Source of the DNA: Nitrospirota bacterium
GTDB lineage: Bacteria; Nitrospinota_A; UBA7883
Assembly (NCBI GenBank): GCA_024275315.1
Contig: JAJRZK010000052.1
Coordinates: 1 to 45,644 of the forward strand
DNA: 45,644 nt
Direction: 5' to 3'
Shown: one piece after another, positions 37,366 through 40,452 of the stretch
Layout of the letters: each line of letters begins with the position of its first letter
How positions within the stretch are numbered: position 1 is the first letter of the stretch
Translations under genes and position numbers: made by a program
The notes under the pieces: model-generated
Databases searched by the model: none
What the model saw: only the letters and a program-made list of their open reading frames with translations
Told to the model about the DNA's origin: nothing

Positions 37366-37585
37366 CATATATAGCGTTGTTTTTACTTGGCATCCGTTTT
37401 TTTTCTGATTTTTTCTGTTTTACCGCTCAAGTATTCATGAAACCTTCCGATATTGCAGATAGGGTAATAACGCCCTGGCAAAGTTTAGTCGAAAAGCGTT
37501 GCTGATTGTATCGTTCGAAACAACGGTAATGCGGATGGACATACATTGCCGCCAACAGGGCTATCGGGCCAGACCCGAAGCTGAG

Positions 37586-37663
37586 CCTGTGAGGACAGGT
37601 TGGCCTGCGCAGACAGGCTTGAACCTGTGGCGGACAAGCTGAACCTGTGCGAGCAGGTTGAAA
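37586..37663. repeat. four tandem 20-bp palindromic repeats
   Basis: Four head-to-tail units begin at 37586, 37604, 37624 and 37644, each opening CCTG(T/C)G and ending (G)GTTGAA or a close variant; the spacing is 18, 20 and 20 bp. Units contain internal dyads such as CCTGT/ACAGG, GCCTG/CAGGC and AACCTG/CAGGTT, so RNA from either strand would fold into successive small hairpins. The units abut with no spacers, unlike CRISPR. They sit in the 594-bp non-coding region between the lipoprotein gene and fliD. Confidence 0.65.
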
Positions 37664-37794
37664 ATGTTTAAAAACATGTTCGACCAGTGGAAGGGTTTGG
37701 ATGATTTTTGTGAACGCGACAATTTTTTCCATTGAGCCGGCAAATATTTTTTTGGACGGTGTGAAAGCGGGAAAGCCATACTCTCTCACTTTCG

Positions 37795-37821
37795 TTATCG
37801 GCCGGGGTTTACATTACTTTA
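37795..37821 (-). promoter_or_regulatory. consensus sigma-28 (FliA) promoter, minus strand
   Basis: On the minus strand TAAA (37821-37818) is followed after 15 nt by GCCGATAA (37802-37795), an exact match to the flagellar sigma-28 core; the -35 side reads TAAAGT, also consensus. It lies 32 nt before fliD but fires away from it, with a start near 37788, through the tandem hairpin repeats. A 72-codon minus-strand frame begins at 37779, just after the start, but its sequence is not convincing as a protein. Confidence 0.6.
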
Positions 37822-37852: not shown

Positions 37853-39685
37853 ATGTCCGGAATAACCTACGCCAGCTACTGGTCCGCCACGGCCGATATA
37901 GGCAGAAAGTTTCCCACGAAAAGCGAAGGCAGATCCGGCGCCAGCTATTTCTCCTCCACCGCCGATGTAGGCAGGCCGGACAAAATCTCCATCAGCGACA
38001 CCGTAACCGAGGCGACTTACTACAACACAAGAGGCGTACCCCCCGTCGCGAACCGCGGGGAGGCGGGCTCTGCCTACCGCACCCAGCAAACCATAGCCGA
38101 CCTGGAAAAGCGAAGGACCGGATCGTCAATTTCCATGAAGCTTAAAATCGGTGACGACCGAGCGCTAAACAACCAGGACACCTTTTTCGTCCGTCTCAAG
38201 GACCGGCTGGCCACTCTGGGCAAAAATCTGTTGCAGATGGAGCGGATGGAAACTTTCAACCCCTACACAGCCTCATCAAGCAAGCCGGAGGCCGTAAACG
38301 CCACTCCCGACATCCAGGCGACAAAGGGGACCTATTCGATCAGCGTGGACCGGCTGGCGCAATCGCACCAGGTTTCATCGGACAAACAGTCCGACCCATA
38401 CGCCGTGTTGAACCTTTCCGGGTCCATATCGATAAACGGCTATTCCATCACGATAGACACGACCGACACCATGGCCGACATACGCGACAAGATAAACCAG
38501 GGAGAAGACGCGAACAAAAACGGAACCCTGGAAACCATGTCCGAGGACAGCAACGGAAACGGGACGCTGGACCTGTACTATACCCCATCGATTTATATCG
38601 GGAACGGAACCTACGCCCCTTCGTTCAGCTATTATGAAGACTTGAATTATGACGGAAACATAGACACCTCCGAAGACATCAACAACAGCGGAACCCTCGA
38701 CGGCGGCTCCGGCCAAACCATGGCCGAGGCCAGGATAGAGGATGGACGGCTTATCATCACAAACCTGAAAGGGGCCGACACGAGCCTGACCCTGTCTGAC
38801 CCGGACAACATCTTAGAATCCCTCGGTTTTTATAAACGGGGGAATATGAATGAAAAACAGCTAAAAACATCGCTGGACAGCAAGTACAACATAGAACCGG
38901 TAACGGCGAAACTTGCCATAGACAACACGTCGCACACAGCCAACGACAACGTTGTCGACAACCTAATACCAAGCATAACCCTCTCGCTGAAAGATACGAC
39001 AACAAAAGAGGTAAAACTCGATATATACAAGGACACGCAAAAAGTTGTACAAAGAATCGAGGCTTTCTCCGCTTCGTTCAACAGCGTCATGGAGCTTATC
39101 GACAAGGAAAATATCGACCACCTGCAGATCCAGGACAACATCCGCATACAGGATTTCACCATCGACCTCGCCAGGAGCGCCCACGCGCAAATCGGTTCCT
39201 TGCCGGCGCCCCCGAAATCCATGAGCGACCTGGGGCTTCCCCCGGCGGAATCCTCCCCCAATACAATTGACGTGGCCTCTATCGAAGGGCTAAACTCCCC
39301 CTCATCGGCAAAATCCTTTCAGAACGAGGAGGGAGGCCAGCCGGGACTATTCGCCAGGCTCAGCCGGATCGGGATCACAAGCATGGACGATTACACGCTT
39401 TCACTGGACAAAAACCGTCTCGCCGACAAGATCGCAAGCGACCCCATGCAGGTCTATTCCGTATTCAACGCCGAGCCGGACGGGGTGGCAAAACGGCTGG
39501 GGCGTGATGTGACCTACGCAATCACCCAACCCAACGGAATGATAGAATATCAACGGCAGTTGCTCGGCCACTACAGGCAAAACTCCATGGACGTCGCCCA
39601 GACGCTGGAAAAACAGGTGGCGCCACTGGTCACACAATCGACCATCTCCATGTCCAGCTCTATCCTGGCTCCGGTGAAAGCATGA
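37853..39685 (+). CDS. fliD: flagellar filament cap FliD, divergent, with EF-hand-like insert
   Basis: FliD caps the growing filament and helps flagellin fold. The 610-residue product has the FliD_N blocks TYSISVDRLAQSHQVSS (about 160-176) and INGYSITIDTTDTMADIRDKIN (194-215), followed after an insert by EDGRLIITN and ILESLGF. FliD_C blocks are IEAFSASFNSVMELI and LFARLSRIGITSMDDYTLSLDKNRLADKIASD. Two things are unusual. First, the N-terminal 140 residues lack the usual GxGSGID opening and contain a duplicated segment, ASYWSATADIGR and ASYFSSTADVGR. Second, residues 217-290 hold four D-x-N-x-(D/N/S)-G loops like calcium-binding EF-hand or dockerin motifs. The ATG at 37853 follows GGCGGGTG. 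The end overlaps the next gene by 4 nt. Confidence 0.85.
   Translation: MSGITYASYWSATADIGRKFPTKSEGRSGASYFSSTADVGRPDKISISDTVTEATYYNTRGVPPVANRGEAGSAYRTQQTIADLEKRRTGSSISMKLKIGDDRALNNQDTFFVRLKDRLATLGKNLLQMERMETFNPYTASSSKPEAVNATPDIQATKGTYSISVDRLAQSHQVSSDKQSDPYAVLNLSGSISINGYSITIDTTDTMADIRDKINQGEDANKNGTLETMSEDSNGNGTLDLYYTPSIYIGNGTYAPSFSYYEDLNYDGNIDTSEDINNSGTLDGGSGQTMAEARIEDGRLIITNLKGADTSLTLSDPDNILESLGFYKRGNMNEKQLKTSLDSKYNIEPVTAKLAIDNTSHTANDNVVDNLIPSITLSLKDTTTKEVKLDIYKDTQKVVQRIEAFSASFNSVMELIDKENIDHLQIQDNIRIQDFTIDLARSAHAQIGSLPAPPKSMSDLGLPPAESSPNTIDVASIEGLNSPSSAKSFQNEEGGQPGLFARLSRIGITSMDDYTLSLDKNRLADKIASDPMQVYSVFNAEPDGVAKRLGRDVTYAITQPNGMIEYQRQLLGHYRQNSMDVAQTLEKQVAPLVTQSTISMSSSILAPVKA
38501..38722 (+). 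other. EF-hand/dockerin-like block inside FliD
   Basis: This segment codes for residues about 217-290 of FliD. Loops DANKNGTLE, DSNGNGTLD, DLNYDGNIDTSED and DINNSGTLD have acidic or amide residues at positions 1, 3 and 5, Gly at 6 and an aliphatic residue at 8, the pattern of calcium-binding loops. It interrupts FliD right after the DIRDKIN helix, where most homologues continue directly. Confidence 0.7.
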
Positions 39686-40113
39686 GCAAGACCGACAAGA
39701 TGATCCAAAACCTGGCCGACCAGAAGAGCCTGTACGAAAAGCTCCTTGAGTTGTCCGATGCGATTGTGTCCTCTCTTTCCGAAAACTCCGACGAGGCGCT
39801 GGTTCTTATGAATGAGCGGGAAAAGGTCCTGGAAAAACTGAAGGAACACGACGAGCTGATAGCGGAACTGGTGAAACACCGCGAGGTGGAAAGGTGGATC
39901 GACACACCCGAAGCGTCGAAGCTCAAGATGGGGCTGACCGGTCTTGTAAAGCAAAATATCGAAGCCGACGAGCGGCTGTATAAAAAAATCGATGAAGCCA
40001 GGAAAACAGCCGGGAATGAAATGGCTGAGCTGGGCAAAAGCTGGAAAACAATATCCGGGTACGGCAAATCCGGCAGGACAGTGTACGCCAGGTTCATAGA
40101 TTTCAAGAGTTAG
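39682..40113 (+). CDS. FlgN/FliT-like flagellar chaperone
   Basis: The 143-residue product is helical and highly charged, with a long coiled coil (about 5-70, for example LMNEREKVLEKLKEHDELIAE) and a second helix (about 85-125). The tail GKSGRTVYARFIDFKS resembles the short hydrophobic tail of FlgN/FliT-type export chaperones, which hold FliD or hook-junction proteins before export. An ATGA overlap with fliD supports a role as FliD chaperone. Sequence alone does not separate FlgN from FliT. No fliS lies next to it. Confidence 0.65.
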   Translation: MSKTDKMIQNLADQKSLYEKLLELSDAIVSSLSENSDEALVLMNEREKVLEKLKEHDELIAELVKHREVERWIDTPEASKLKMGLTGLVKQNIEADERLYKKIDEARKTAGNEMAELGKSWKTISGYGKSGRTVYARFIDFKS

Positions 40114-40125
40114 GATGGATTTGCG

Positions 40126-40452
40126 ATGATAAAGCCGGTTGGACCCACGCAAAAGTTCGTGGCCAAATATGATCAGCAACGGTTTTTCGCCGAACGCGCC
40201 GCAAAAATTAAAATACCGAAGACATACCAGATCGGCGCGGAAGACAAAATAAGCATCTCCACAGGCGCGATGGAAAAACTGGCCTACGCAAGCTCGGCGA
40301 CGCAACCCGGCCCGGTCGGCAAGGCCATCACCTACGAGGACCCGCGCAAGACAGCCCGTCAGGAAAAATCACACAGCTCGTTTGAAAAAATGAAGATTAA
40401 AAATATCACAACCGAAACCAGGGCCGCGATCGTTTCCGCCCCGGCAAGGTAA
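40126..40452 (+). CDS. uncharacterised small flagellar-cluster protein
   Basis: I do not recognise this 108-residue product. It is basic (many Lys, Arg), without a signal peptide or membrane segment, and looks largely disordered. Near its middle is the motif AEDKISISTGAMEKL; the DKISIS core also occurs in the N-terminus of the FliD encoded just upstream (residues 43-48). A similar short motif is found near the start of FlgM anti-sigma factors, but FlgM's C-terminal sigma-binding helices are not seen. It follows the chaperone gene by 12 nt, with AGGATGG upstream of the ATG, so it belongs to the fliD transcript. Confidence 0.6.
   Translation: MIKPVGPTQKFVAKYDQQRFFAERAAKIKIPKTYQIGAEDKISISTGAMEKLAYASSATQPGPVGKAITYEDPRKTARQEKSHSSFEKMKIKNITTETRAAIVSAPAR

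Follow-up and report, generated by a model that had tools for sequence, protein, structure and literature searches.

The window analysed here, a 45,644-nucleotide stretch of the Nitrospirota bacterium assembly GCA_024275315.1 (contig JAJRZK010000052.1), carries a gene for a paralogue of FliD, the flagellar cap protein; this paralogue has lost both D0 leg segments and holds four calcium-type loops within its head. In an alignment of orthologues, the ligand columns of those loops are the most conserved part of the protein. We lean slightly towards the view that this leg-less paralogue is an accessory component of the filament or tip, exported by the flagellar route, with a D2-D3 head that would be fixed by predicted calcium binding. 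Discussions of FliD usually assume one cap protein, with a plate-like head that varies and can even be dispensed with. The fold and the type of calcium loop are already known, and what is new is their combination and the leg-less paralogue family. Our literature search found no paper on a leg-less FliD paralogue or on calcium loops in FliD, a weak indication given that most subscription journals lay outside that search.

A FliD paralogue without legs

The gene and its recognisable domains are as follows.

37853 to 39685, + strand: FliD-like (leg-less) paralogue gene, 610 aa, assigned by Pfam, Foldseek and trees
37853 to 38137, + strand: N-terminal 95 residues, in place of the FliD D0 N-terminus; possible export signal
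38162 to 38368, + strand: FliD_N match (Pfam), residues 104-172, with profile positions 1-28 missing
38906 to 39109, + strand: FliD_C match (Pfam), residues 352-419

Both Pfam matches of the window protein are partial and above cut-off (FliD_N, E = 8.3e-9 over profile positions 29-97 of 97; FliD_C, E = 3.5e-19), and together they flank the insert. Foldseek searches with AlphaFold models returned FliD or cap-complex structures as their sole matches at E <= 1e-3 (best values 1e-18 and 4e-16), and on these models the D1-D2-D3 fold is predicted to be retained. The protein was unmatched in PHROGs.

A canonical FliD of 528 aa is encoded on another contig of the same genome, directly after a flagellin gene, and is matched almost end to end by FliD_N and FliD_C. 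We compared the two kinds of protein through a 542-position profile built from canonical FliD proteins of relatives. Canonical proteins match this profile end to end, truncated ones excepted, whereas every complete member of the paralogue family covers only positions ~46-390; the exceptions at the profile start are one weak match from position 21 and one from 33, and no member extends past ~425 of 542. By this comparison both terminal D0 segments are absent in every complete family member. In the window protein, canonical positions 1-45 find no counterpart in the N-terminal 95 residues, and residues 1-94 are predicted to be disordered (AlphaFold pLDDT <50). Those first 95 residues hold two SYWSATAD-type repeats, and a genome search found no second copy of the N-terminal repeat elsewhere in the window's own genome. 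Aromatic repeats of the form (A)SYWSATADxGR, in two to three copies within a disordered N-terminus, were seen in the window (37853-37980) and at loci L005 and L020-L022 (the window's order).

The extreme termini are the sole substitution-intolerant region of FliD, D2 and D3 being dispensable, and terminal truncations impair FliD function in Pseudomonas (PMC8533109); contacts made by D0 stabilise the FliD pentamer (PMC7316729). Because D0 is absent here and the termini are essential in published FliD, it is unlikely that the leg-less head caps the filament in the known way. The initial annotation had named the gene product a flagellar cap protein, and the FliD fold and domains hold up, but the word cap is too strong given that both D0 termini are missing and a separate, complete FliD is encoded in the genome; the identity of a canonical cap is disfavoured on the same grounds.

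The paralogue shares with FliD (HAP2) the FliD_N and FliD_C domains, the D1-D2-D3 fold, a place in the flagellar regulon and a nearby chaperone-like gene. It differs in lacking both D0 segments, in coexisting with a canonical FliD, in its four-loop insert and in forming a monophyletic family of its own. A known parallel to an enlarged head is Campylobacter jejuni FliD with its D4 domain (6SIH, 9GSX), in which an extra element likewise sits away from the cap cavity; unlike the window protein, it has D0 legs and is a working cap. Calcium is not mentioned for this D4-bearing FliD (PMC12221982).

Four calcium-type loops in the head

The insert is made of two pairs of abutting loops joined by a linker.

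38501 to 38722, + strand: residues 217-290, the insert with its four calcium-type loops, placed in the Flagellin_IN-like part of the head (D2-D3)
38507 to 38545, + strand: loop 1, DANKNGTLE (D219, N221, N223, G224, L226, E227 and, beyond these, E231)
38546 to 38572, + strand: loop 2, DSNGNGTLD (D232, N234, N236, G237, L239, D240), directly abutting loop 1
38573 to 38638, + strand: residues 241-262, the linker that joins the two loop pairs, predicted by AlphaFold to hold short strands
38639 to 38674, + strand: loop 3, DLNYDGNID (D263, N265, D267, G268, I270, D271, E274), a full 12-residue EF-type calcium loop
38675 to 38701, + strand: loop 4, DINNSGTLD (D275, N277, S279, G280, L282, D283), directly abutting loop 3

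The four loops follow the consensus D-x-N-x-(N/D/S)-G-x-(L/I)-(D/E), and the initial description of four D-x-N-x-(D/N/S)-G loops at 38501-38722 is borne out at residues 217-290. Among 20,000 whole-protein shuffles and 20,000 shuffles of the insert's composition, no sequence held more than one full nine-residue motif, and the loose six-residue motif reached three at most. A chance or low-complexity origin of the loops is ruled out by the shuffling together with their conservation in distant orthologues.

Loops within a pair are spaced ~12-13 residues apart, and in most members each pair (1-2 and 3-4) reads D-x-N-x-N-G-x-L-D-x-x-E-D-x-N-x-N-G-x-L-D; relative to these, the first pair of the window protein has one extra residue, in loop 1. 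Only loop 3 of the window protein fits the strict Dx[DN]xDG motif, the other loops having N or S at position 5. The position-12 acid is absent in loops 2 and 4, and loops 1 and 3 offer side-chain ligands at positions 1, 3, 5, 9 and 12 in most members.

In the orthologue alignment, mean conservation is 0.83 at the ligand columns, compared with 0.43 at the other insert columns and 0.46 in the FliD core, where identity drifts to 20-40% within the family. Loop 1 keeps positions 1, 3, 5 and 9 in all 27 orthologues and the position-12 acid in 22; loop 2 keeps positions 1, 3 and 5 in 27/27 and position 9 in 22/27. E274, at position 12 of loop 3, is invariant (27/27), with positions 1, 3 and 5 of that loop kept in 22 of the 27 and degenerate in one subclade. 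Positions 1, 5 and 9 of loop 4 are kept throughout (27/27), and its position-6 glycine is lost in 20/27. All four loops are intact at positions 1, 3 and 5 in 19 of these proteins and three loops in the remaining eight.

The family does not strictly depend on the loops: loop 3 is degenerate within a single subclade, and locus L056 (1501-3969, - strand; genome G016) is without them. In L056 the loop slot is filled by a beta-sandwich-like insert that weakly matches PKD or fibronectin-like domains, and another insert precedes it. The slot is modular in the other direction too. Two Nitrospina-type loci, L027 (223-2226) and L031 (2029-4029), have a longer insert in which the loop module is partly duplicated, giving six or more loops.

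Likeness to known calcium modules

Given 12 sequences, AlphaFold modelled the insert at pLDDT 40-65; given 27, it reached about 75-84. The latter model shows no helix in the insert, short strands in its middle and isolated bridge residues 229 and 272 beside loops 1 and 3; being metal-free, it gives the order and secondary structure of the insert, not ligand geometry. Pfam EF-hand models fell below cut-off for the window insert, and Dockerin_1 matched three of the 27 members, also below cut-off (best E 0.56). A profile of the insert found weak matches among solved structures, mostly to EF-hands (best E 0.011), and no TSP3 match was returned from solved structures or Pfam. All 27 inserts partly match DUF7151 (PF23657), a domain of unknown function, over the stretch G-x-D-x-N-x-N-G-x-L, to which the likeness is limited (best 1.6e-5); the window insert scores 0.015, under the curated cut-off, over ~16 of 46 positions.

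The classic calcium loop has D-x-N-x-D-G and, after it, acids at positions 9 and 12, and Dx[DN]xDG loops are known outside EF-hands (PMC3123361). An EF-hand is a helix-loop-helix whose 12-residue loop has ligands at 1, 3, 5, 7, 9 and 12, and a dockerin has two calcium loops, each with a helix after it. The insert shares with EF-hands and dockerins the ligand order 1, 3, 5, 9, 12, though loops 2 and 4 stop short of position 12; its loops lack flanking helices in the model and leave no space for them within a pair. A nearer likeness is to Dx[DN]xDG loops outside EF-hands, among them the thrombospondin type 3 repeats, which are tandem Dx[DN]xDGxx[DN] loops with calcium at their core and no helices. 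The insert too consists of short, close-set, helix-free tandem acidic loops, and calcium is expected to form the core of an irregular segment, as is predicted here. It departs from thrombospondin type 3 repeats in having no cysteines, in its arrangement as two loop pairs with a short-stranded linker, and in its position inside a FliD head. Taken together, the comparison and the model argue for tandem EF-type loops like those of thrombospondin or other Dx[DN]xDG segments. The original suggestion of calcium-type loops in FliD is well supported by position-by-position ligand conservation in 27 orthologues and by the insert being ordered in the model from the deeper alignment. Its likening of them to EF-hand or dockerin repeats is unsupported, because there are no flanking helices, no room for them at ~12-13 residue spacing and no Pfam match above cut-off; a true EF-hand or dockerin is ruled out by the helix-free model and the Pfam scores.

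A conserved cassette with flagellar features

Downstream and upstream of the paralogue lie the following features.

39682 to 40113, + strand: gene for a FlgN-like export chaperone of 143 aa, which overlaps the stop codon of the FliD-like gene (FlgN Pfam; conserved position)
40126 to 40452, + strand: third cassette gene, 108 aa, with a conserved D-x-(I/V)-S-I-S motif, found after the FlgN-like gene throughout the family
37427 to 37452, + strand: sigma-28-type promoter-like site TCAAG-N15-CCGATA, ~400 bases upstream, one mismatch to TAAAG-N15-CCGATA

The order of FliD-like gene, FlgN-like gene and small gene recurs across the family. All 18 true neighbours are hit by the FlgN profile with E no higher than 0.1; the best value is 2.2e-8, and the window copy is weak at 0.037, below cut-off. 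No confident Pfam or NCBIfam family was found for the third gene. The sigma-28-like site (p = 0.005 against shuffles) has an equivalent upstream of the gene in 13/13 tested members outside the Nitrospina clade, that is, the window and 12/12 others, and also before the canonical fliD of the same genome; it was not seen directly upstream in Nitrospina-clade members. No sigma-54 promoter signal was found. At one Nitrospina-type locus (L024), the paralogue has a flagellin gene and a sigma-54 activator no more than a few kilobases away.

No further flagellar gene lies directly beside the window cassette, and other neighbours in the window include a PAS histidine kinase, a deoxyhypusine synthase-like gene and sugar or Kdo-type biosynthesis genes. 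A perfect TAAAG-N15-CCGATA occurs just upstream of the FliD-like gene on the opposite strand (37796-37821, - strand), with no convincing gene after it on that strand. Short similar AACCTGTG-type stretches cluster in the intergenic region before the gene, at 37560-37670.

Distribution of the family

The paralogues form one side of a strongly supported branch in trees with FliD (support 100/99 with the insert), and support is 99 when the tree is rerun without the insert to guard against circularity. Genome surveys queried with the profile of the entire family, or with core plus insert, found carriers in 66 of 101 Nitrospinota-type genomes, Nitrospina included: 14/24 in the window's phylum and 52/77 in the GTDB phylum that holds Nitrospina sp. 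LS_NOB. A search of named records, biased towards loop-bearing members because its pattern came from the insert, returned 24, all but two of them titled Nitrospinota, Nitrospinae, Nitrospinales, Nitrospinaceae or Nitrospina; depositors titled the remaining two Nitrospirae. That the insert is unique to the window genome is ruled out by its presence in other Nitrospinota-type genomes.

Flagellin is present in 64 of the 66 carriers, the two without it being 72% and 57% complete genomes. Fisher's exact test for co-occurrence of paralogue and flagellin over the 101 genomes gives p = 8e-10, a value that overstates independence because the genomes are related. Nearly every carrier in the window's phylum also has a canonical FliD. 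The survey of FliD in related genomes proposed by the initial annotation shows that the insert recurs in the leg-less family and that the loop motif is found in none of 12 canonical FliD proteins from relatives. The accompanying suggestion of life in calcium-rich water is unsupported: by their record titles, loop-bearing members come from both groundwater and marine genomes, and a calcium-rich habitat is not indicated because both keep the same loops.

The lineage, its marine nitrite oxidisers (Nitrospina) included, has retained this second, leg-less FliD from a time before its members diverged, and the protein's most conserved part is the calcium-type module in the head.

Proposed role and alternatives

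We propose that the gene arose as a paralogue of the cap protein that kept the D1 helices and the D2-D3 head and lost both D0 end segments, which anchor and run a growth cap. Sigma-28 would drive its expression together with the late flagellar genes, the FlgN-like chaperone from the adjacent gene would deliver the protein to the flagellar export gate, and folding would take place outside the cell. There, calcium at the four loops would fix an irregular segment of ~70 residues, two abutting loop pairs and a short-stranded linker, and so give this accessory part of the filament or tip a rigid surface that depends on calcium. Sequence analysis shows the FliD homology and predicted fold, the loss of D0, the conserved insert and ligands, the co-occurrence with flagellin, the FlgN-like neighbour and the promoter-like site. 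That the insert binds calcium is very probable, export of the paralogue is probable, and a position on the filament or tip is somewhat favoured. We infer a structural rather than a regulatory role for the calcium.

The paralogue might instead be a true second cap, serving a second flagellin or growth phase, in which the disordered N-terminal tail replaces D0 and calcium stiffens the head. The FliD fold with D1-D3 retained, the several flagellin-domain proteins per genome and the flagellin gene near the paralogue in Nitrospina-type loci are in keeping with such a cap, but the loss of both D0 segments in every complete member, set against the damage that terminal truncations do to Pseudomonas FliD (PMC8533109), and the canonical FliD of nearly every carrier in the window's phylum make it rather improbable. 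We regard as unlikely, too, an adhesin secreted or surface-displayed via flagellar export, whose calcium module would order a surface that binds particles, surfaces or cells. Its loops are of the extracellular calcium type and resemble tandem loops in other long secreted-looking proteins of many genomes, L056 has a beta-sandwich-like domain in the loop slot, a kind of exchange seen in modular surface proteins, and adhesion has been linked to FliD head domains (PMC8533109); against this, no known binding domain was recognised in the paralogue, and the module is strongly conserved in sequence where the tips of many adhesins diversify fast.

The calcium step itself could be mistaken if the loops served as structural turns with no calcium bound in vivo, or took up Mg2+ or another divalent ion incidentally. 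In favour of this, N predominates at position 5, the acid at position 12 is missing from loops 2 and 4, and loop 4 has lost Gly-6 in most orthologues (20/27). Conservation nevertheless peaks exactly at the ligand positions and is weaker between them, and D-x-N-x-D-G with acids at 9 and 12 is the classic calcium order (PMC3123361), so that we consider such turns very improbable.

If the accessory-protein reading is confirmed, it would describe a FliD head working apart from capping and provide a defined test of extracellular calcium control over a flagellar part. A bolder version, which we think doubtful, is that Nitrospinota flagella have an extra axial or tip part, the leg-less FliD served by a dedicated chaperone, and that calcium outside the cell acts as a switch for the assembly or stiffness of this part. 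If true, this would be a flagellar part undescribed in model organisms, together with a calcium-dependent step in filament assembly.

Similar loops in other proteins

Among 385 relatives beyond the two phyla, the insert profile found no other FliD-like protein. The remaining matches scored at most 38 bits, and those read by eye were other long secreted-looking proteins. Proteins of ~700-750 aa at loci L091-L098, from several other phyla, share these tandem loops (ED-x-N-x-N-G-x-L-D), which sit immediately ahead of a conserved LPTPP-like stretch.
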